DNA of 64,000 nucleotides. Source: Clostridia bacterium (GTDB lineage Bacteria; Bacillota; Clostridia; Oscillospirales; Acutalibacteraceae). Under the pieces are notes generated by a model. It was not told where the DNA came from, made no database searches, and saw only the letters and a program-made list of their open reading frames with translations. Shown in pieces: positions 31,238 through 43,386 of this stretch. The position numbers and the translations under genes were made by a program. How positions within the stretch are numbered: position 1 is the stretch's first letter; each line of letters opens with the position of its first letter. The DNA is taken from contig JAFRMR010000007.1 in assembly GCA_017430535.1 (NCBI GenBank), positions 125,817 through 189,816 of the forward strand. Direction: 5' to 3'.

Positions 31238-31620
31238 GAAGTTAAGGTTGGTAGTTTTCCAAGGGTTGTGGTTGGAGTTACACCAATTTATCAAGAAAAG
31301 GGGGCGATTCCATTGGTAACAGTTTACAGTGGTTTCGCACCGGCTCAGCTCAGTAAATAATGCCGGCTGTCCGCAAGGAGCCGGGATGTTCCAAGGGGAA
31401 CAAAAAATGAGCGGCTGCTGCGAAACAAAAGGTTTACAATTGAATAGTATAAAAGTTTTAAAAAAAGGATACGTGAATTCCGATGTACAGTTTATTCTGA
31501 AATAAGTATTATGAAAGCAGTGATTCCATTGTTCGGTTTATCCTAGTTTCGTAATAGTTCAGAGGTTTTTTGTACGAAATATAAAACTTTACCGGCGCCT
31601 GTAAAAAGGCGCCGGTTTTT
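31238..31620 (+). ncRNA. Orphan structured RNA of about 380 nt, family not recognised
   Basis: The stretch between the GH43 gene and the convergent ECF gene forms a complete transcription unit: promoter at 31203-31231, terminator at 31591-31620, no normal ORF. Visible structure: two similar hairpins TTGG-N7-CCAA (31248-31262 and 31272-31286); an 8-bp stem GTTTCGCA (31332-31339) with TGCGAAAC (31419-31426) enclosing CCGGCTC/GAGCCGG (31340-31346/31378-31384) and TGTTCC-AAGG-GGAACA (31387-31402); and TTTCGTA/TACGAAA (31547-31553/31573-31579). GATTCCATTG occurs twice (31306, 31522). Short ORFs with GGGGG- or GGAG-like sites lie inside, so a peptide product is possible. It lacks the tmRNA tRNA-like end and the RNase P core GAGGAAAGTCC. 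Confidence 0.6.
31591..31620 (+). terminator. Terminator of the orphan structured transcript
   Basis: 9-bp perfect GC-rich stem ACCGGCGCC/GGCGCCGGT with an 8-base loop, then T5. Confidence 0.88.
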
Positions 31621-31627
31621 CTTTTTG

Positions 31628-32317
31628 TTAAACACCGTATTTTATTTTTATTCTGCCTAATTTTTCGCTGAACGGTTTTGCCAGCAGGAAGGCGAAAACA
31701 GCATTTGATACGGCATATATTGCCGTGTAGGGCAGTGCCGTGGTTATTGCCGCAAGGTATGCCTTGAGGTTAAATGAGTTGTAAGCCCATATTACAGTCC
31801 ATATATCCATTATTGCGGAGTAAACTATGCCTGCAAAAAATGAGTAAACGCACATTTTTACCCTGCTGCCCATAAGCTGCTTTGATAAAAGCCCTGCAAA
31901 GGTGCCTATAAGCCCCCAGGCGAACATCTGGAAGGGAGTCCATACCCCCATGCCGGCAAACAGGTTTGATGTCAGTGCGGAGAAGGCACCGACCGCAAAG
32001 CCCGCTTCGCTGCCGAGGTAAACGGCAGCCAGCACCGTAATTGCCGTTACGGGATTTACACCCGGCAAAGGGGAGCATATAACCCTGCCTATTGAGGCAA
32101 TGGCAATAAATGCAGCGCATAGCACCAGTCGGCGGGTGCCTGTTTTTTTCTGCTCAAAACCGCAGGCAAAAAGAATCAGGGTAAATAGGGCGGTTGCCAT
32201 TATTATATAAGAGTAGCTTCTGTCCCTGAATACAAAAGCACCGGAAATCACAATAAGCGGAATGATAAGGAAGGGGATTGCTTTTGAAAAAACAGATTTT
32301 ATGCCGCTTAAGGTCAC
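31628..32317 (-). CDS. ECF transporter S component, probably for a corrinoid
   Basis: This 229-residue membrane protein has about seven to eight helices: two N-terminal hydrophobic segments, then a core like vitamin-binding S components, with PLPGVNPVTAITVLAAVYLGSEAG (split around ~82-105) and WTPFQMFAWGLIGTFAGLL (~125-143). The S component captures the vitamin and docks on EcfT. Riboswitch control of the operon points to cobalamin or a precursor (compare CbrT), an inference from context. Its start overlaps the EcfA stop by four bases, and it is the last gene of the operon. Confidence 0.82.
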   Translation of the reverse strand: MTLSGIKSVFSKAIPFLIIPLIVISGAFVFRDRSYSYIIMATALFTLILFACGFEQKKTGTRRLVLCAAFIAIASIGRVICSPLPGVNPVTAITVLAAVYLGSEAGFAVGAFSALTSNLFAGMGVWTPFQMFAWGLIGTFAGLLSKQLMGSRVKMCVYSFFAGIVYSAIMDIWTVIWAYNSFNLKAYLAAITTALPYTAIYAVSNAVFAFLLAKPFSEKLGRIKIKYGV

Positions 32318-33936
32318 CGGCTCCGGTCCTCCGGTTTAATATATTTTGCCAGGTCGTTATCGGTTATTATTCCTTCAGCGTAATCCCTTGTTATCTTGCT
32401 TATTGATGTTGTGTAATATATGTTTTCCGAGAAAAATTCCCGGGGCTTATCTGTGCAGGTAACGGCCCCTCTGAAAAACATTGCTGCTCTGTCTGCGCAA
32501 AGTGCGGCAAATTCCACATCGTGGGTTACCGCAATAATTGTTATGCCATCTTCTTTAAGCTTTTTCAGCACTTCGCATATATCCCGTTTAGCCTTCGGGT
32601 CAAGCCCTTTTGTAGGCTCGTCAAGCAGCAGTATTTCCGGCTTTGATGCCATCACTTTGGCAATGGCCGCCATCTGCCTCTCGCCGCCGCTTAAATCGTA
32701 TGGGTGTATATCCGCCGCATAAGAAAGATCAAAGGGAATATCTTTGAAATCTATACCGGATTCTTCCATTTCCTCACGCAGAGTGTTTTTCATAAACAGT
32801 ATTTCCGGGTTCTGGGGCAGATAAGAAATAACTCCGCCGTAGAGCTCGCTGTTTTTGTATTTTTTTATATCTTTGCCGAATAGGCGGATTTTTCCGCTGT
32901 AAGGGGTAAGAAGCCCTGCGGCACAGCAAAGCATGGTTGTTTTTCCGCTGCCGTTTGCTCCCAGTATACACAGTATTTCGTTTTTATATGCGGTTATATC
33001 CGTGCCTCTGAGCACATCGTCGCTGTCTTTATCATATCTGAAATATACTTTTTTGAATTCAACAGCCGGCTCTTTTTCTGCTTTATCATCAGATGCTTTT
33101 TCTTCAGTAAACAAAGGCAGGGTATTTTTTTTCAGGTATGTCCGTCCTTCTGTTACGCTGAGGGGGCAGGGGCCTTCGCCGCCCAGCAGGCTGTAAAGCC
33201 TTGCGCTTCCCGGCAGATAAGGTAGCATTTTACTGTCTTTCAGAAGCTTTTCCGCCGTTTCTCTTACAGGGCCGTATGCTTTTATTTCTCCGCCGTCAAT
33301 AGCACAGATTTTGCTGCACAGCGGTATTACATTTTCAAGCCGGTGCTCGGAAATTATTATTGTTACGCCGCTTTCGCTGTTCAGCTTTTTCAGCGCATTT
33401 AAAAACTCGTTTGCAGATATGGGGTCAAGCTGTGATGTGGGTTCATCCAGAATTATTACTTCCGGGTCAAGGGCGGCAATGCTGGCAAGGGCAACAAGCT
33501 GCTTCTGCCCCCCGGATATCTCCGAGGTTTTGCTTTCAAATATTCCGTCAATTCCGAAATAAGCCGATACCTCAGCCATTCTCCGGCTCATAAGCCCCTG
33601 GCTGTAATTCAGGTTTTCCATGCCAAAAGCAATCTCGTGCCATACCTTGTCCGTAACAGTCTGATGTTCTGTTGACTGCTGCACAAAGCCTATGGCGGAG
33701 CTTTCAGCCTGGGAAAGCTCTTTTATTTCTTTTCCGCCGAATAGTATACTGCCTTCTGTTTCTCCCAGGGGTGAAAGCTCGGGCTTCAGCAATCTGAGCA
33801 GTGTTGTTTTGCCGCTGCCGGTGGGGCCGAAAAGCGCAACAAAATCACCCTGTTCCACGCTCAGGTTTATGTTCTTTATTGTTTCTGAGCAACCGGGGTA
33901 TGAGAAGGAGAGATTTTTGATTTCAATAAGCGCCAT
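32314..33936 (-). CDS. ecfA: ECF transporter ATPase, two fused ABC domains (EcfA1-EcfA2)
   Basis: The 540-residue protein contains two complete ABC ATPase domains. Domain 1: Walker A GPTGSGKTT (~36-44), signature SGGQKQ (~142), Walker B VIILDEP (~160). Domain 2: Walker A GANGSGKTT (~327), signature LSGGERQM (~420) and ILLLDEPTKGLDP (~442). EcfA1 and EcfA2 are usually separate genes; a fusion makes the heterodimer in one chain. It energises the transporter with EcfT. It starts 61 bases before the end of ecfT and overlaps the S-component gene by four bases. Confidence 0.92.
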   Translation of the reverse strand: MALIEIKNLSFSYPGCSETIKNINLSVEQGDFVALFGPTGSGKTTLLRLLKPELSPLGETEGSILFGGKEIKELSQAESSAIGFVQQSTEHQTVTDKVWHEIAFGMENLNYSQGLMSRRMAEVSAYFGIDGIFESKTSEISGGQKQLVALASIAALDPEVIILDEPTSQLDPISANEFLNALKKLNSESGVTIIISEHRLENVIPLCSKICAIDGGEIKAYGPVRETAEKLLKDSKMLPYLPGSARLYSLLGGEGPCPLSVTEGRTYLKKNTLPLFTEEKASDDKAEKEPAVEFKKVYFRYDKDSDDVLRGTDITAYKNEILCILGANGSGKTTMLCCAAGLLTPYSGKIRLFGKDIKKYKNSELYGGVISYLPQNPEILFMKNTLREEMEESGIDFKDIPFDLSYAADIHPYDLSGGERQMAAIAKVMASKPEILLLDEPTKGLDPKAKRDICEVLKKLKEDGITIIAVTHDVEFAALCADRAAMFFRGAVTCTDKPREFFSENIYYTTSISKITRDYAEGIITDNDLAKYIKPEDRSR

Positions 33937-34787
33937 TTCAGTTTGTCACCTGCCTCAATTATGGTGGGTATCAGGCACAGAATAAAGTAGCCCGAGTATG
34001 CGGCAACAGCCGCCGTTTCAAAACCGGGGAGTTTCATTGAAGGGTAAAAGGAATAGTCAAGGAAACCGAAAGCGGATACTGCAATATATATTCCGCCTAT
34101 AACCGCCGTAACTGCCGTAAGAGCACAATCTGCGGTGTCAAATGAGAATATCCGGTAACGGCTTCTTTTACCGCCGCCGTAACCCCTTGCGGCCATACTG
34201 TCCGAGGTTATGATTGTGTTTTCAATCATATAGGATATCATTACGGAAAAAACTCTCATTACCGATTTTACTTTATATACAATTGAGTCTGTTTTAAAAG
34301 TTCCAAGAGTTTTCTGAACCGCTATGGCTTCTTTTGATTTTTTTATGTAAACCGGAATAAATCTTAAAGCAAGGGTAAGCATTAGGGCGGATTTCGGGAA
34401 GAATCTGCCTACGGAATAAACCACCTTATCCGCCGTCATTATTTCGGAATAAACCGCAAACCAGTAAAGAGCGCCTGCAACCATAATCCCCATAAAAAGG
34501 CCGTAAACCAGCGCCTCTGCCGTTACCGCATTATTGTTGATAAACAGCAGGGGAGTTTTGCCGTTATGGCTGAAAATCGGGTTAAGAATTGTGCAGCCCG
34601 CAATGATTATAAAAACGGAAATATGTATTTTTTTGCTTTTGCAGTAGGGTGTTGAGCAGTAAAGAATAAGCCCTCCTGTAAAAGAGAGCATAATGATAAT
34701 AGGATTCAATGAAAACATTGATATTAAAATAACCGATAAAAAACAGACTGAAACCGAGAGAGGATTGTAAGATTTAAGGCTCTTCAT
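33876..34787 (-). CDS. ecfT: ECF transporter transmembrane scaffold EcfT
   Basis: A 303-residue protein with about six to seven helices and the EcfT coupling motif SMAARGYGGG (~205-214), the Ala-Arg-Gly signature that binds the ATPase groove; a second partial motif (AIAVQKTLG) lies at ~160. EcfT links the S component to the two ATPase domains. It begins with an ATGA overlap to the toroid/DUF4430 protein gene, so its synthesis is probably coupled to that of the secreted protein. Confidence 0.9.
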   Translation of the reverse strand: MKSLKSYNPLSVSVCFLSVILISMFSLNPIIIMLSFTGGLILYCSTPYCKSKKIHISVFIIIAGCTILNPIFSHNGKTPLLFINNNAVTAEALVYGLFMGIMVAGALYWFAVYSEIMTADKVVYSVGRFFPKSALMLTLALRFIPVYIKKSKEAIAVQKTLGTFKTDSIVYKVKSVMRVFSVMISYMIENTIITSDSMAARGYGGGKRSRYRIFSFDTADCALTAVTAVIGGIYIAVSAFGFLDYSFYPSMKLPGFETAAVAAYSGYFILCLIPTIIEAGDKLKWRLLKSKISPSHTPVAQKQ

Positions 34788-36952
34788 TTCAGATCCTCTC
34801 CCAGGTTACAGGTATATTCCCATTTGATTTTATCGCCGTCGCTCAGCAGATACTGGCCGCAGCCTACATCGGCCTGCACTCCGTTTACGCTGTAAATCCA
34901 GCCGGAAAGCTCGCCGTAGTCAAATTCATAAAGGTTGTTTATACCTGCTATGTAGGCGTTACTGTGGTCAGCGGCACCGGCGGATTTATCATCCACCTGA
35001 ATCTGCAGCTCTCTGGCTATGAAGATAAGGCAGTCATATACCGTGGCGCCTTCATAAAGCTTAACTTTGGTTTTGGGCAGGATAACGCCTTTTTTGGGCG
35101 TTATCTCTTCATCGCCCTGGCCTTTGACCGTGTCGCAGCGGATGCTGATGGTAACAATTATTGTTCCGTCGCCGTCTGCTTTTGTGGGTGAGTAGAATTC
35201 ACCGGGTGTCTGTATATTGATAAGCAATGCGCAGGCGGTGATAATACCGGCAACTGCGGCAATTGCCACATAGTTTTCAGGTTTTCTCTTCTTGAGGGCT
35301 GTTATAACAGCTGCGGAGATTGCGGCAAGCCCCCAGGCAACGCATATTGCAATTATTCTGAAAATAAACGATGTGCTTTTTCTCGGGCCTGTTTTTTCGC
35401 CCGTGTTTTCGCTTTCGTATAAATCCGTATATTCGGATGCGCTTGTTTCCCCGCCGTAATATGTTGTTGAATAATCATCGGTTTCATCGTTGAATGTTAC
35501 GGTTTCAAAGCTCTGGTAATTTCCTGTTGTTGTGTATGCCTCGGTAGCATCATAATAGGGAACGGTATTGAGAGCCGGGGCAAGTGTATAAGTAACTGTT
35601 TCGGGTGTGACTGTGGGCACTATCGGTTCAGTGTCAGCTTCCGTTGCGGCTTTTTTTGCTGCTTTTGTTGTAGTTGTTGTGGATTCTCTTTCTTTTCTTG
35701 AGCCGTTGGTAAACCCGCCGTTCGGCGAAACATTGCCGCCGTTTGCGGGCTTATTGTTCGGGCTTATGGTAGTGGGTGAAAAATTGTTTGTAAGGTTATT
35801 TTCTCTGCTCCCCGAACCTGTGGGATTTGTAAATTTCTGTGATGATTTTGAAGATGAACTTTCGCTTTCATCTGTGCTGTCGGATGTATCGGCGACTGCA
35901 GTAGATGCAGTTGTGGCAGTGCTGTCGGTATCGCTTGCGCTGCCTGCCTGGCCGCTGCCTGAGTTGGATTTTGAAGCGGAACCTGTCTGAAGGTTCAGGC
36001 TTTTTGGCGAAAGATTATATGCGTAAAGTCCACCTCCGCCCTGATTGAAAACATAAAGAGCCACGCTTGCATAAAGCACCTGTGCCGTGGCGTTGAGGTT
36101 ATAATCACCGCCTGCTGTGTGTGAGTAGCCTTTTGAGGCTTTGTAGGCAAGCATTGCCTCGTATGGATTTTTACCGCCTTTTATGAATCTTGAATCACTC
36201 AGGGGGTTAATTCCCAGTGAAGTCAGGGCAACCACAACCTGTGCGGCGCTCTCCGGGTTCTCAGCGCCGTAGCTGGCAAATCCGCCGTTGCTCTTTTGGC
36301 TTCCGGAAAGAAAGGTCAGGGCTTTGCTTACTGCGCCGGCAACGGTTTTGTTACCTGCATTGTAAGGCGCAAGTGCCTGAAGCACCATGGCGGTTACATC
36401 CACATCTGAGCTGCCCTTTGATATTGCCCAGCCGCCGTCGCTCTGCTGAGCATCAAGCAGGGTTTTTACCGCGACATCGGCGCTTGTGCCGGCTGTGTTA
36501 TTTATAAGATGCAGGCCGAAAACCCAGCTCATAATGCCCATGGCGCCTGTATCTTCGCTTATAACCTTTTTAACATAATCCGAGTGTACGCCCATTATGG
36601 AAAACAGAAGGGCTATCCGCTCTCTTGTTACGGCATTTCCGCTGAAGCTTGAAGAGGTTGCTCTGCTGTAAAGGGCCTCATTGAATATTGTGAAATCATA
36701 ACTGCTGTCAAAACGCCTCAGGGAATATACAAACCAGTCGGAAGAAACTCCTGCATTTTCGGCATATTTGCCGTCAAGAAGCGCCTGTACATTTTTTACT
36801 CCCGCTGTGCTTTTTTCATCATTGTATATGCCTGTAATTACTTTATCCGGGCTTGTATCGGAAGCAGCATCGGCCGGAAGTAAAAATACCCCCGGCAAAA
36901 CGATTGAAAAAATCAGCAATAATGAAATTGTCAGTCGTCTGATTCTGCTCAT
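34784..36952 (-). CDS. Secreted alpha/alpha-toroid plus DUF4430 protein with transcobalamin-like domain plan
   Basis: A 722-residue protein: signal peptide (1-30); helical toroid domain (~55-305) with prenyltransferase/squalene-cyclase-type repeats (DGGWAISKGSSDVDVTAMVL at 172-191; NGGFASYGAENPESAAQVVV at 222-241); Ser/Thr/Asn-rich linker (~320-525); two hydrophobic helices (529-551, 561-580); and a C-terminal DUF4430 domain (~597-714) ending SGWIYSVNGVQADVGCGQYL and DGDKIKWEY. Mammalian intrinsic factor and transcobalamin combine the same alpha barrel with a DUF4430-like beta domain to enclose cobalamin. Being in a cobalamin-riboswitch operon with an ECF transporter, it is a good candidate corrinoid-binding surface protein. 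Binding is inferred; the two helices between the domains are unusual. Confidence 0.8.
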   Translation of the reverse strand: MSRIRRLTISLLLIFSIVLPGVFLLPADAASDTSPDKVITGIYNDEKSTAGVKNVQALLDGKYAENAGVSSDWFVYSLRRFDSSYDFTIFNEALYSRATSSSFSGNAVTRERIALLFSIMGVHSDYVKKVISEDTGAMGIMSWVFGLHLINNTAGTSADVAVKTLLDAQQSDGGWAISKGSSDVDVTAMVLQALAPYNAGNKTVAGAVSKALTFLSGSQKSNGGFASYGAENPESAAQVVVALTSLGINPLSDSRFIKGGKNPYEAMLAYKASKGYSHTAGGDYNLNATAQVLYASVALYVFNQGGGGLYAYNLSPKSLNLQTGSASKSNSGSGQAGSASDTDSTATTASTAVADTSDSTDESESSSSKSSQKFTNPTGSGSRENNLTNNFSPTTISPNNKPANGGNVSPNGGFTNGSRKERESTTTTTKAAKKAATEADTEPIVPTVTPETVTYTLAPALNTVPYYDATEAYTTTGNYQSFETVTFNDETDDYSTTYYGGETSASEYTDLYESENTGEKTGPRKSTSFIFRIIAICVAWGLAAISAAVITALKKRKPENYVAIAAVAGIITACALLINIQTPGEFYSPTKADGDGTIIVTISIRCDTVKGQGDEEITPKKGVILPKTKVKLYEGATVYDCLIFIARELQIQVDDKSAGAADHSNAYIAGINNLYEFDYGELSGWIYSVNGVQADVGCGQYLLSDGDKIKWEYTCNLGEDLK

Positions 36953-36991
36953 AGTCTCCTTAAACTCTTTCGGTTTTATGAAAGCCTTAAA

Positions 36992-37813
36992 TTATACTTT
37001 GGGTGCAATATTGGGAAAAATCTCAGTGATTTTGCTGAGAAATGATGAAAAGATATCTGTAAAAAATGCCTTGATACTTTCAATTATATCATTGAAAATG
37101 TCGCTTGCATCCTGGCCTGTGGTGGTAAGAATGCATACCGGGGGAGTGATTATTGTTCCTGAGGGGGATTTTGCGCTTACAGTGTATGTACCGCCTCTGG
37201 GTGCGGTGAATGTAGCGTTGCCTTTTTTGTCGGTATAGCAGCCGGTGCCTTCGCCGTCAATGGTGATTTCAGCTTTTTCAACGGGTTTTGTAACGGGATT
37301 ATAGTTGTCATCAAAGCCGGCAATTGAAAGTGTAAGGGTTATTTCGTCGCCCTTTTCGGCTTCGGCAGTGTTTTTGTTGAAATATGAATATGTATCGGAA
37401 AAATCTTTTGTATCGGTATAAGTGAATGCGTAAACATGGTCATTGGTTTTTACTGCATCTGCCAGAGACCAGGCTGCTGCGTTGTTCAGATAGTATCCGA
37501 ATCCCATATTGTTTTCTTCACCCCAGAGTTTGGTAAGTGAAAGGCCGTACTGTGTTTCGGATGTGCCGTAGCCTTTTGCGGCTTTGCCGTCGAATTTTGC
37601 ATCGTGAGCGCAGTACAGGGCGTCATTGATTGTAAGCTGGCCGTCCTTATCGGTATCGGTAACTTTAATCTTCTCATAAGCCAGCGCAAGCTTGCCGGAT
37701 TTTGTGGCAATGCTTACAAAAAGCTCGGCTTCGGGTGAAGTGGCTGCAAAAGCTACTGTGAGTGTGCCGAAAATCATAATAACGGCAATTGCGAGTGATA
37801 AAAACCTTTTCAT
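36992..37813 (-). CDS. Secreted protein with EF-hand/dockerin-like loop and DUF4430-like segment
   Basis: A 273-residue exported protein (signal peptide to ~23). DTDKDGQLTIND at 53-64 is a perfect calcium-binding EF-hand loop, with Asp at 1, 3, 5 and 12 and Gly at 6. After it, MGFGYYLNNAAAWSLADAVK and DHVYAFTYTD (~103-132) resemble the end of a DUF4430 domain (G-Y-Y/W-x-x-N-G ... D-x-V-x-F-x-Y). A beta-sandwich-like region follows (PVEKAEITIDGEGTGCYTDK, ~175-225), then an amphipathic Phe/Ile-rich tail (~240-268) that could lie on the membrane. AAGGAG precedes the ATG. Between the riboswitch and the toroid protein, it may be a second corrinoid-capture protein; this is inference. Confidence 0.65.
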   Translation of the reverse strand: MKRFLSLAIAVIMIFGTLTVAFAATSPEAELFVSIATKSGKLALAYEKIKVTDTDKDGQLTINDALYCAHDAKFDGKAAKGYGTSETQYGLSLTKLWGEENNMGFGYYLNNAAAWSLADAVKTNDHVYAFTYTDTKDFSDTYSYFNKNTAEAEKGDEITLTLSIAGFDDNYNPVTKPVEKAEITIDGEGTGCYTDKKGNATFTAPRGGTYTVSAKSPSGTIITPPVCILTTTGQDASDIFNDIIESIKAFFTDIFSSFLSKITEIFPNIAPKV

Positions 37814-38098
37814 TTAATTTTGCTCCTTTTTTTTATTTTTGTCAAGTTTATATTCACGCATCTTTATTTTATGTTGGATGCGTTTTTTCTGTTTCTTTTC
37901 TTCTTTTTCACTGTCTTTCGGTTTTATTCCCACCTCGGTCAGTGCCTTGGGCCAGGGGCCGTAAAATGATTTTATTGCCGCAACCTGCTCCGGGGTAAAA
38001 TCTCCCTTTTTAGGGTAACGGTTTTCTCCCGAAAGCAGTATGGAATCATATTTCTGCCGGAGCAGTTCTTTGCATTTGTCTTTTGTCAGGTTTTCCAT
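37814..38098 (-). CDS. Small basic protein with homing-endonuclease-associated-type repeat
   Basis: A 94-residue protein, very rich in Lys and Glu. The segment YPKKGDFTPEQVAAIKSFYG and PWPKALTEVGIKP (~28-59) resembles the short helical repeat found next to some HNH/homing endonucleases (W-P-x-x-x-D-F ... F-G-x-W-x-x-A-L-x-x-A-G), thought to bind DNA. The C-terminal third is almost only charged residues. It is the first gene behind the cobalamin riboswitch; its ATG directly abuts the T7 of the terminator and has no separate ribosome binding site, so it would be made only when the terminator is read through. Its role in the operon is unknown. Confidence 0.6.
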   Translation of the reverse strand: MENLTKDKCKELLRQKYDSILLSGENRYPKKGDFTPEQVAAIKSFYGPWPKALTEVGIKPKDSEKEEKKQKKRIQHKIKMREYKLDKNKKKEQN

Positions 38099-38134
38099 AA
38101 AAAAACACGCCTTTCAACTTAAGCTGAAAAGCGC
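38099..38134 (-). terminator. Riboswitch-controlled terminator
   Basis: Minus strand 10-bp stem with two G-T pairs (GCGCTTTTCA at 38134-38125, TGAAAGGCGT as the other arm), followed by T7 touching the start codon of the 94-residue gene. An upstream segment (38192-38183, TGAAAAGAGC) can pair with the first arm instead and would act as antiterminator. Confidence 0.8.
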
Positions 38135-38218
38135 AACCCGAATAAAACCCCGGCACTGCTGTACCAAAGTTTCTATACGGCTGCTCTTTTCATTCCCAAA
38201 AGATACAATACCAATGTT

Positions 38219-38325
38219 TACACCCGCGGGCATTCCGGCTTACGGCAGAGCCGATTACGGTAATGGATGTTGCGACGGATTTGCACCGAACTTCCCCCTT
38301 ATCCTCATAAAAAGGAGCGGGTGTA
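38219..38325 (-). promoter_or_regulatory. Cobalamin riboswitch aptamer, compact type
   Basis: Read on the minus strand, the element is closed by a 9-bp P1 stem (TACACCCGC at 38325-38317 with GCGGGTGTA at 38227-38219). Inside are the conserved cobalamin segments: GGGGAAGTTCGGTGCAAATC, a B12-box region (CATCCATTACCG) and AAGCCGGAATGCCC. The short size (~107 nt) and CCGGAATGCCC resemble the compact class II aptamers rather than the long AdoCbl class. It precedes a terminator with a possible antiterminator, so cobalamin should switch the downstream transporter operon off. A TACC in the B12-box loop could pair with GGTA just downstream as a kissing loop; that is tentative. Confidence 0.88.
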
Positions 38326-38343
38326 TACTTAATTTTCACAATA

Positions 38344-38372
38344 ATTTTATGCCTTTTGCACGTCATTGTCAA
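38344..38372 (-). promoter_or_regulatory. Promoter of the cobalamin-riboswitch operon
   Basis: Minus strand perfect TTGACA (38372-38367) and TAAAAT (38349-38344), 17 bases apart; the aptamer starts about 12 bases after the expected transcription start. The rest of the gap up to the next plus-strand gene (38373-38467) shows only an ill-defined control region. Confidence 0.85.
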
Positions 38373-38467
38373 GTGCAGCGGTTATTGTCCGTTATTTTGT
38401 ACACACCTTGGGTTAAAATGAAACTGCAGGGTATGTTGATATCTTTATGAAATCGGAGGTGTATCAA

Positions 38468-38992
38468 ATGATTAACTGGCCCGTATATCTGAGAATAGCC
38501 GGCGATGATTACCTGCACACATTCAAAACCTCGGTACCCGTAAGTGATGATATCTACCGCAAGATGATTATTGCTGCAGATCTGAGAAAGCCCTTCAGTT
38601 CATGTGAGTTTTACGAAACGGTAAAAGAAAAAATGAATTCTATTCTTAAAAAGGGGCAGACAGCCGATGAAACCGTACTCAGCAGCGCCGTTATCTGCGA
38701 CCCCGGCGATATCAAGCGGCTGCGGGAAAAATTCAGGGGCAGAACCTATGGCTGGTATGCGGATAAAACCGCCAACGAGTGTGAGTTTGATTATTATTCC
38801 CCGGAGTATCCCTTTGAGGAATACTGCCTTACGGTCTGCTTTGATAAAAACGGAACCGTAACGGATATAAAGGATGTTATCGCTTTCTGCCCGGAAATAA
38901 GGAACGGCATTGAAACCGGAAAAGCCGAATGTTACCCGGATTTTGTGTCAATTTCCCTCTGCCTTGAAAATGAATTGGAAAAGACAGGCTGA
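38468..38992 (+). CDS. Conserved-looking protein of unknown function
   Basis: I do not recognise this 174-residue protein. It has no signal peptide or membrane helix. The composition is mixed alpha/beta, with several aromatic and acidic patches (GWYADKTANECEFDYYSPEY around ~100-118). The ATG at 38468 follows a very good GGAGGTG site by six bases; an in-frame ATG at 38447 lies upstream of that site. It stands alone between the divergent riboswitch operon and the phosphate transporter gene. Codon use resembles its neighbours, so it is very probably a real gene. Confidence 0.75.
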   Translation: MINWPVYLRIAGDDYLHTFKTSVPVSDDIYRKMIIAADLRKPFSSCEFYETVKEKMNSILKKGQTADETVLSSAVICDPGDIKRLREKFRGRTYGWYADKTANECEFDYYSPEYPFEEYCLTVCFDKNGTVTDIKDVIAFCPEIRNGIETGKAECYPDFVSISLCLENELEKTG

Positions 38993-41788: not shown

Positions 41789-42715
41789 ATGGCAGACTGG
41801 ACTGAAATCATTATTACCGTAAACGCAGATAATGTTGACCTTGCCGGGGATATCGCCCAGATGGTGGTTCCCTACGGTATTTATACCGAGGATTACCGCT
41901 TCCTTGAGCAGGAGGCCCGTGAAATAGCAAATATAGACCTTATTGATGAAGAACTCCTTGCAAAGGACAGAAGCATCGGTAAGGTGCATATTTATATTTC
42001 CCCCGAAGAGAATCCGGCGGAGGCCGTCTCCTTTCTTCGGGAGCGTTTTCAGAGCGAAGGCATAGATTACAGCATTGATGAATCCCTGTGCAAAAATGCA
42101 GATTGGGAAAATAACTGGAAAAAGTATTTCAAACCTATGCCCGTAGGTGAGCGCCTGCTTATTCACCCTATATGGGAGCAGGAGTATGAAGCCGGCGGCA
42201 GAGCCGTTATTCACCTTGAGCCGGGCCTTGCTTTCGGCTCCGGAACCCACGATACCACCCGCCTGTGCCTTGAGACTATAGAAAAATACGCATATCCCGG
42301 CAAAACCATGCTGGATGTTGGCTGCGGCAGTGGCATACTTTCCGTTTCCGCCCTTTTGCTCGGGGCTGACAGCGCCGTGGCAGTGGATATTGACCCGCTG
42401 GCAGTTAAAACCGCAAAGGAAAACGGAAAAAGTAACGGTTTTGATGAACCCGTCTACAAAGTGCTCCAGGGTTCTCTTACGGATAAAGTAACCGGCAGGT
42501 ATGATATTATTGCGGCAAATATTGTTGCGGATATTGTTATTCTGCTGTGCAGTGATGTTAAAAGCTTTATGAAGGAAGATGCAGTTTTCATTACTTCCGG
42601 TATCATAGAGCAGAGGGAGCAGGATGTGCTTGCCGCCTTTGAAAAAAACGGTCTTAAAGTAATTGAAAGGCACGAAAGCGGCGGCTGGCTCTGCTTTGAG
42701 GCAAAAGCAAAATGA
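41789..42715 (+). CDS. prmA: Ribosomal protein L11 methyltransferase PrmA
   Basis: A 308-residue SAM-dependent methyltransferase. The N-terminal substrate domain (~1-100) is followed by the Rossmann part with FGSGTHDTTRLCLE (~150-163), motif I MLDVGCGSGILSV (~173-185), AVDIDPLAV, and AANIVADI (the N-I/P-x-x motif of this family, ~248). PrmA trimethylates L11 on the ribosome. It overlaps the next gene by four bases (ATGA). Confidence 0.93.
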   Translation: MADWTEIIITVNADNVDLAGDIAQMVVPYGIYTEDYRFLEQEAREIANIDLIDEELLAKDRSIGKVHIYISPEENPAEAVSFLRERFQSEGIDYSIDESLCKNADWENNWKKYFKPMPVGERLLIHPIWEQEYEAGGRAVIHLEPGLAFGSGTHDTTRLCLETIEKYAYPGKTMLDVGCGSGILSVSALLLGADSAVAVDIDPLAVKTAKENGKSNGFDEPVYKVLQGSLTDKVTGRYDIIAANIVADIVILLCSDVKSFMKEDAVFITSGIIEQREQDVLAAFEKNGLKVIERHESGGWLCFEAKAK

Positions 42716-43386
42716 GTATTTCAACCGAACTTAAAGATTATCTCATTTCCGAAGGCGCATCGGATGTCGGCTTTTTTAAGTGCGAAGGCGGACCTCTGCC
42801 TTACGGAATAACCGTGGTTCTTCGTCTTTCCCCCGAAATTGTGCGGGAAATTGACGGCAAACCCACATTAACCTATTTCAACCATTACAGGCAGGTTAAT
42901 GCTTATATAGACCGCCTGCTGCTTCAGGCCGGGCTTTATCTGCAGAAAAAGGGATACGGTTATATTACCGTAGCTGCTTCCCAGAGTATGAATGAAGAGG
43001 GCTGGAATTTTAAAGGCAGATTTTCCCATAAAGAGGGCGCCTGCCTTGCTGGTCTCGGGGGCATAGGCAGAAACTCCCTTTTTTATCATAAAGAATGGGG
43101 CAGCCTCGTTCGGCTTGGTACTGTGTTTACGGATTGCCCGCTTGAAACGGGAGAAAGGATACCTCTTGATATCTGCGGAAGCTGCCGCAAATGTGTTGAT
43201 GCCTGCCCTGCAGGCGCAATCAAATTTACAGAGTTTCACTACGGCATTGAAAGAGAAGATATTTTCGATCCTCAGGCCTGCAGTGAACATATGAAAAAGG
43301 CATATCAGAAAATCGGCAGGGGAGCCGTATGCGGAATATGTATGCGGGTCTGTCCGAAAAATAAACTGGATAAGAAAGAAGGTTAA
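42712..43386 (+). CDS. QueG-like protein with two [4Fe-4S] clusters, lacking the longer QueG parts
   Basis: A 224-residue protein carrying ferredoxin-type motifs CGSCRKCVDACP (~154-165) and CGICMRVCP (~208-216), plus GLGGIGRNSLFYHKEWGSLV (~118-137), a segment typical of the epoxyqueuosine reductase/reductive-dehalogenase-like group. True QueG is about 310-380 residues with a cobalamin-binding domain and HEAT repeats; this one is shorter, so queuosine function is doubtful. It starts in the prmA stop codon and ends four bases before the GH38 gene. Confidence 0.75.
   Translation: MSISTELKDYLISEGASDVGFFKCEGGPLPYGITVVLRLSPEIVREIDGKPTLTYFNHYRQVNAYIDRLLLQAGLYLQKKGYGYITVAASQSMNEEGWNFKGRFSHKEGACLAGLGGIGRNSLFYHKEWGSLVRLGTVFTDCPLETGERIPLDICGSCRKCVDACPAGAIKFTEFHYGIEREDIFDPQACSEHMKKAYQKIGRGAVCGICMRVCPKNKLDKKEG

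Follow-up and report, generated by a model that had tools for sequence, protein, structure and literature searches.

Why should a bacterial operon under a cobalamin riboswitch carry, beside an importer of the energy-coupling factor (ECF) type, a gene for an extracellular protein that resembles the cobalamin carriers of mammals? We addressed this question for a minus-strand operon in a stretch of 64,000 nt (hereafter, the window) from a Clostridia bacterium. An initial annotation, made from the letters alone and confined to the interval 34784..38372 on the minus strand, had read the locus as a corrinoid-capture system of the transcobalamin type. This reading is supported by the RF00174 match, by the carrier-like fold of the largest extracellular protein (torD), by a CbrT-like S-component (EcfS), by a genome that appears to depend on corrinoid, and by the recurrence of the operon and its aptamer in relatives. 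We consider it likely that the operon encodes a corrinoid uptake machine, in which a torD protein of the transcobalamin type feeds a CbrT-like ECF importer.

Riboswitch, importer and host genome

The unit runs, on the minus strand, from a promoter-like site through an aptamer, a terminator-like hairpin, the gene for a 94-residue protein, sec273, torD, EcfT, a fused EcfA-EcfA gene and EcfS to a second terminator-like hairpin (Table 1). The cobalamin riboswitch that had been read by eye was recovered by the covariance model RF00174 at a score well above gathering. It was the sole RNA family above threshold in the window, and the single RF00174 match across the host genome. The leader fold had a z of -3.7, with 1 of 200 shuffles equally stable or better, and the hairpin in front of the first start codon is likely to be the expression platform of an OFF switch. 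The promoter-like and terminator-like sites are consensus matches, which by themselves are no evidence of function (the region held 22 promoter-like sites versus 12.3 in shuffles, and 18 terminator-like sites versus 10.3). All the annotated open reading frames (ORFs) were present as described, but the three ECF genes lie outside the interval first given and extend to position 31628.

EcfT, two EcfA domains and EcfS are thus together in one operon. When EcfS was used as a single sequence to search PDB, the best match was 6fnp_A (E 9.4e-8), which was also the sole S-component among the matches. A profile search gave the same chain at E 6.6e-15, while the next chain, 4hzu_S, followed at E 0.0028. 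The 6FNP structure is described as that of ECF-CbrT (PMC5997447). EcfS is nearer to the cobalamin S-component CbrT than to the other solved S-components.

We also evaluated the host genome by profile searches. A MetH-type protein, which combines a pterin part, two B12-binding parts and a homocysteine methyltransferase part, was the only clear B12-binding protein (a second B12-binding match was weak and below cut-off). These searches of the genome found no MetE (PF01717), no FecCD (BtuC-type permease), no PduO-type or CobA-type adenosyltransferase (PF01923, PF02572) and no match to the class II reductase model TIGR02504. The single TP_methylase looks like RsmI, as judged by eye. From this gene content, the host apparently requires corrinoid for methionine and cannot synthesise it. 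The genome also encodes three further ECF S-type proteins at other sites, and the operon is the best candidate for a corrinoid importer that these searches found.

Predicted fold and membrane topology of torD

The order of a toroid followed by a C-terminal DUF4430 domain, as originally annotated, was confirmed by Pfam and by the AlphaFold model. The toroid itself was modelled too, although at residues 35-303 and not at 55-305 as first delimited. The DUF4430 match (PF14478, residues 656-714) scored 60.4 bits against a cut-off of 23.8, and the squalene-cyclase-type toroid match scored 26.8 bits, barely above its cut-off of 26.1. At E 0.001, torD was the sole DUF4430 match in the host genome. We then aligned 67 torD proteins (alignment A7), comprising the window and 66 of the 71 relatives' loci in which toroid and DUF4430 share one ORF, so that the rows were chosen for the fusion. 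Five loci are omitted: L158, and L111, L117, L146 and L147, whose contigs stop within the gene or next to it. DUF4430 was matched in all 67 at E 0.01, and the squalene-cyclase toroid model in 54.

A Foldseek search with the torD model bore out the proposed likeness to intrinsic factor and transcobalamin. Transcobalamin, haptocorrin and intrinsic factor aligned across both lobes, over ~700 columns (E 4.5e-5 to 8.1e-4). The carrier chains among the top 50 listed matches had TMt values of 0.43-0.59, with a root mean square deviation (rmsd) of 8-18 A. The lone beta domain of human transcobalamin was also matched (5no0, TMt 0.73, E 1.0e-3; 5np4, TMt 0.72, E 1.8e-3). As the rmsd leaves the placement of the lobes loose, we dropped Foldseek as evidence for lobe closure. 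No sequence proof of kinship with the solved carriers was present among the listed matches. PF01122, which we take to be the Pfam family of the animal carriers' toroid, was not matched, either among the torD families at E up to 1 or in the list of 20 families that the 67 proteins gave at E 0.01. A reading of the toroid as a thioester protein was rejected, since the GCGEQ motif is absent from it in all 67.

PDB entry 3u7z (Ruminococcus gnavus RUMGNA_00854, a 'putative metal binding protein') matched torD over 120 columns with a TMt of 0.70, presumably through the DUF4430 lobe. This protein may be a corrinoid-binding domain instead of a metal binder.

The initial annotation had described torD as secreted. 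This was not borne out, as it had missed a hairpin of two predicted membrane helices between the lobes, and torD is therefore probably membrane-anchored rather than freely secreted. Exactly two hydrophobic segments separate the lobes in all 67 proteins (with hydropathy cut-offs that we set ourselves; signal peptides and lipoboxes were judged by eye). The loop of the hairpin carries a net charge of +3 in 26 proteins, +4 in 26 and +5 in 15, which by the positive-inside rule would place both lobes outside the cell. The linker before the first hydrophobic helix varies from 6 to 218 residues. The AlphaFold model agrees with this lobe-hairpin-lobe layout, with a predicted template modelling score (pTM) of 0.61.

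Operon and aptamers in relatives

Relatives were scanned with one genome per species, which gave 453, and the best 80 loci were retained for the conservation counts; these counts therefore lean towards close architectures. The record titles of the scan name Clostridia-type taxa or unspecified bacteria, many of them sampled from the gut of ruminants. Ruminococcus flavefaciens FD-1 and MC2020 are among them, and operon and aptamer were both present in these two (L173, L183). An earlier set comprised the window and 74 loci from relatives.

A search for toroid-DUF4430 genes beside ECF genes and cobalamin riboswitches had been proposed with the initial annotation, and its outcome was in line with that proposal. 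On the toroid's strand and within 9 kb, DUF4430 was found in 72 of the 80 loci (in 71 of them in the toroid's own ORF), sec273 in 68, EcfS in 64, EcfT and EcfA in 62 each and the small protein in 36, while a cobalamin-type aptamer was present in 60. Besides A7, we built alignments for sec273 (A8, the window and 57 of the 68 loci) and for EcfS (A9, 26 rows, the window and 25 of the 64 loci). The coordinate ranges of a further alignment, A6, were chosen by eye, and its checks covered row identities, not frames.

The aptamer counts come from a local covariance model, R1, which was built from 15 leaders and has seven pairs only, so that it leans on sequence. On the window and the 74 loci, R1 gave 36 matches at E 4.3e-6 or better, 21 of them held-out, with the next match at E 0.29; the aptamer of the window, a training row, was among those recovered. 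On the 80 loci it gave 63 matches in 60 loci (5 of which we took as identical to training rows), every one on the operon strand. Among the 58 loci that hold EcfS, EcfT and EcfA together, 47 had an aptamer, and 4 of the 11 without one begin inside the operon.

Different aptamer types were observed. In four relatives that lack RF00174 (L047, L053, L054, L056), the operon was preceded by an AdoCbl-II aptamer (38.7-56.7 bits). Rfam gave nothing in L046, L048 and L051 and a sub-threshold AdoCbl match in L058 (29.4 bits versus 50); R1 scored the leaders of all four (L046 10331-10460, L048 6700-6837, L051 6630-6776, L058 3201-3346) at E 3.3e-11 or better. Regular-expression searches for aptamers were noisy and served only to place candidates, which were later scored by covariance model.

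We also examined co-occurrence in 60 genomes (the window's own and 59 relatives). DUF4430 was present in 53, RF00174 in 27 and RF01689 in 21. Among the 55 distinct aptamers of these two RNA families, 37 had a same-strand DUF4430 match no more than 6 kb downstream, and 4 were otherwise placed (three as a second aptamer right behind the toroid-DUF4430 gene in the same operon, one on the other strand). In this count, 6 of 56 listed aptamers and 2 of 78 DUF4430 matches lie below the family cut-off, and small contigs limit the view.

Some further aptamer arrangements were seen. Eight loci (L032, L034, L035, L036, L038, L162, L168, L172) have two cobalamin-type aptamers per operon; one precedes sec273, and the other lies between torD and the small protein or EcfT. 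L164 has an aptamer-like core before EcfT (by regular expression only) and a c-di-GMP riboswitch. In L060 (8437-10440, minus strand), a toroid protein with a hydrophobic C-terminal segment lies beside a cobalamin riboswitch, with a DUF4430 match ~0.3 kb behind the aptamer.

Variant loci bear on how the parts work together. In L133 (as a split pair), L152, L154, L163 and L167, torD is followed by EcfS without EcfT or EcfA nearby, and L158 is alike up to a contig end inside EcfS. That torD stands directly before EcfS alone in these six loci ties it to the substrate-specific subunit; such loci may be under another kind of regulation and may rely on a shared motor. In 8 of the 74 loci, adjacent ORFs encode toroid and DUF4430 separately. 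Four of these loci (L033, L049, L059, L062) show a lipobox-like start of the DUF4430 protein, and the other four (L041, L042, L045, L055) a single hydrophobic segment near its N-terminus. A weak DUF4430-like stretch is also seen within the toroid protein of L062. L042 and L055 have a fusion of the sec273 domain with the toroid. The same parts are thus fused in some loci and split in others, which argues for joint action at the outer face of the membrane.

The sec273 protein was modelled by AlphaFold with a predicted local distance difference test score (pLDDT) of 93.4. The model shows an N-terminal alpha/beta domain that bears an EF-hand-like DxDxDG loop, then an Ig-like domain and finally a C-terminal helix. 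The loop is near-invariant among 58 proteins (D53 in 58, D55 and D57 in 57 each, G58 in 48). There was a sub-threshold CarboxypepD_reg match, and 4 of the 58 matched a Gram-positive anchor model. The order of strands and helix in the model is beta-grasp-like. The best 50 of 1963 Foldseek matches were mostly Ig-type and phi29 capsid chains, with no carrier beta domain among them. A reading of sec273 as a second DUF4430 protein was unsupported, with a profile comparison probability of 0.25% (0.5-0.8% with deeper alignments). The 94-residue protein gave a weak, sub-threshold match to HNH_repeat, which is homing-endonuclease-associated (19.6 bits versus 26).

Two neighbouring genes of the window lie on the plus strand. 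One, at 38447-38992, is an ORF of 181 residues that diverges from the riboswitch promoter and was matched by neither Pfam nor NCBIfam at the thresholds applied. The other, at 42712-43386, encodes a short 4Fe-4S protein like the C-terminal part of QueG and of reductive dehalogenases, far under their cut-offs.

Table 1. Features of the operon and of the torD protein, in window coordinates
Feature	Position	Strand	Basis
Promoter-like site TTGACA-17-TAAAAT	38344..38372	-	Consensus scan, 11/12 matches, best of 22 regional sites
Cobalamin riboswitch aptamer	38208..38337	-	RF00174 42.2 bits, E 2.9e-7; gathering score 31.5
Terminator-like hairpin and T run, just before first start codon	38106..38135	-	13 pairs
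Small basic protein, 94 residues	37814..38098	-	ORF
sec273, 273 residues, signal-peptide-like start	36992..37813	-	ORF
torD, 722 residues: toroid, disordered linker, membrane hairpin, DUF4430	34784..36952	-	ORF, Pfam, model, Foldseek
torD: alpha/alpha toroid lobe, residues 35-303	36044..36850	-	Helical repeats, block pLDDT mostly >90; profile matches to squalene-cyclase toroids
torD: low-complexity disordered linker, ~residues 316-505	35438..36007	-	pLDDT <50
torD: predicted membrane hairpin, helices 527-552 and 558-577	35222..35374	-	AlphaFold model and hydropathy
torD: DUF4430 (transcobalamin beta-type) lobe, residues 597-714	34811..35164	-	PF14478; Foldseek
EcfT	33876..34787	-	PF02361 CbiQ 28.8 bits, cut-off 25; start codon overlaps torD stop codon
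EcfA-EcfA, fused double ATPase, 540 residues	32314..33936	-	Two ABC_tran stretches; ECF_ATPase models 313.8 bits, just below cut-off 315
EcfS, CbrT-like S-component	31628..32317	-	Pfam ECF families; best PDB chain 6fnp_A
Terminator-like hairpin after EcfS	31591..31616	-	10 pairs, 8 G-C

Proposed mechanism, other readings and known systems

We propose that at low cytoplasmic corrinoid the riboswitch leader would be read through and the six genes expressed. The helical hairpin would hold torD in the membrane, with the toroid on a flexible tether and the DUF4430 lobe at the membrane surface, both outside. As in the transcobalamin of animals, a corrinoid would be enclosed by the two lobes, which would then deliver it to the CbrT-like EcfS. 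The EcfT/EcfA motor would turn EcfS, so that the corrinoid is released inside, chiefly for methionine synthase. The sec273 protein would be an accessory cell-surface part of the same machine.

A more detailed picture can be drawn, which we offer tentatively and hold to be somewhat short of an even chance. In this picture torD is an opened transcobalamin in which the hairpin replaces the linker between the lobes. The beta lobe would sit on EcfS, while the tethered toroid would reach into the wall, close over a corrinoid and release it when the S-component topples. A third extracellular part would be sec273, which would bind calcium and may be a corrinoid binder of a diverged beta-grasp type.

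Several observations weigh against corrinoid uptake. At the level of torD, the best Foldseek matches by E-value were terpene cyclases (drimenyl diphosphate synthases, E 1.4e-5, 272 columns), the sequence profiles of either lobe matched no carrier chain in PDB, and closure of the lobes on each other is not fixed by the model, given its pTM and the carrier rmsd. At the level of the loci, 12 of the 80 had no ECF gene within 9 kb; some of these end soon after the toroid, and L127, L137, L142 and L177 extend several kilobases beyond. R1 gave no match in 20 of the 80, of which 4 begin inside the operon and the other 16 had no cobalamin family at the Rfam gathering score either. No aptamer was detected by R1 or Rfam in any of the six torD-EcfS loci lacking EcfT and EcfA, which indicates that control by B12 is not general. 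In the 60 genomes, 14 of the 55 aptamers had no DUF4430 match within 6 kb. The gene absences in the host are also not absolute, since its assembly is in 27 contigs and 96.88% complete, and contig gaps may hide genes.

It is unlikely, in our judgement, that what the operon imports is a precursor of corrinoids, or some other compound of the cobalt or tetrapyrrole kind (cobinamide, cobalt, heme), instead of complete corrinoids. EcfT does match a Pfam family named cobalt transport protein, CbrT itself is described as accepting cobinamide (PMC5997447), and a reviewer of PMC1796856 remarks that some DUF4430 proteins may bind other ligands. Against this, the fold partners of torD are cobalamin carriers, and the S-component is CbrT-like by sequence. 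A bare precursor would also be hard to finish in this host, since neither adenosyltransferase family was matched and the only TP_methylase is RsmI-like. Genes for lower-ligand attachment were not part of these searches, and this, together with the six torD-EcfS loci without a detected aptamer, slightly weakens the case for complete corrinoids and slightly raises that for a precursor.

We find it improbable that torD is a corrinoid sensor or an adhesin rather than a feeder of the transporter. The account in PMC1796856 places transcobalamin-like domains in transcription factors, the long low-complexity linker recalls cell-surface proteins, and a few toroid or torD loci lack an ECF gene within 9 kb. 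Above the Pfam cut-offs, torD showed no domain for signalling or DNA binding, and EcfS alone follows torD in the five loci (and the truncated sixth) described above. It is hardly credible that the toroid acts as a secreted enzyme, like a terpene cyclase or a polysaccharide lyase, and merely shares a promoter with a B12 importer: terpene cyclases lead the Foldseek matches, the profile matches of the toroid in PDB are squalene-hopene and related cyclases, and 5 of the 67 torD proteins match Pec_lyase at E 0.01, but the last Asp of the DXDD motif that class II terpene cyclases carry is replaced by V, I, A or T (position 186) in all 67, which makes a cyclase unlikely, DUF4430 is fused to the toroid throughout this set (chosen for that fusion), and toroid, EcfS and aptamer recur together across species.

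Corrinoid capture by a toroid-DUF4430 protein encoded beside importer genes is not new as an idea, and a prediction of B12 scavenging has been in print since 2007 (PMC1796856). In that work, Burroughs et al. described fusions of a toroid with an SLBB domain in Gram-positive bacteria. As a rule, the fusion genes lie in predicted operons that also contain CbiO/CbiQ-like genes. The proteins have signal peptides and C-terminal Gram-positive anchors, and the operons may code for a second extracellular SLBB protein. The bacteria usually lack key enzymes of B12 synthesis, and scavenging of B12 or its precursors was predicted (all PMC1796856). In our reading, SLBB and Pfam DUF4430 are the same domain. 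These fusions are like torD in uniting a toroid and a DUF4430-type domain in one chain and in lying in operons with ECF genes. In the passages of PMC1796856 on these fusions there is no mention of a riboswitch, of an S-component or of a hairpin in the membrane between the lobes; here the first two are present and the hairpin is predicted.

The TCN proteins are described as having a C-terminal DUF4430 domain (PMC4350170). Like torD, mammalian transcobalamin, haptocorrin and intrinsic factor have an N-terminal alpha/alpha toroid and a C-terminal beta-grasp lobe. The mammalian carriers are soluble and are taken up by endocytosis. Unlike them, torD has its lobes joined through a linker and a predicted membrane hairpin, and is encoded beside an importer; with two hydrophobic segments in all 67 proteins, it is probably not of the soluble type.

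Among bacterial systems, ECF-CbrT of Lactobacillus delbrueckii, whose S-component is homologous to EcfS, is described as an ECF-type cobalamin importer in a B12 auxotroph, encoded in a cluster nrdJ-cbrS-cbrT-pduO (PMC5997447). No toroid protein appears in that paper's account. The operon studied here, in contrast to that cluster, has its own EcfT and EcfA, and the corrinoid user found in the host is a methionine synthase. For Lacticaseibacillus rhamnosus, a DUF4430 protein, LGG_02295, is named, and a table has an entry for an extra lipoprotein component of a putative cobalamin ECF transporter (both PMC9963975). This is echoed by the lipobox-like DUF4430 proteins beside toroids in four of our split loci, although the relevant part of PMC9963975 mentions no toroid.

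We conclude that the finding is real and well supported; at the level of ideas, it refines earlier work and is not a discovery. To the known architecture it adds riboswitch control, a CbrT-type partner, the hairpin topology and a conserved third extracellular protein. Our searches found no earlier description of a hairpin in the membrane between the lobes, of control by different aptamer types or of a CbrT-type partner in this clade. Extracellular capture in ECF importers is usually credited to the S-component alone; if the more detailed picture drawn above is true, the importer would have an extracellular device of its own dedicated to capture. The finding turns the bioinformatic prediction of 2007 into a concrete, testable machine, whose topology is defined, whose importer partner is of the CbrT type and which is under riboswitch control; it is found in named relatives.

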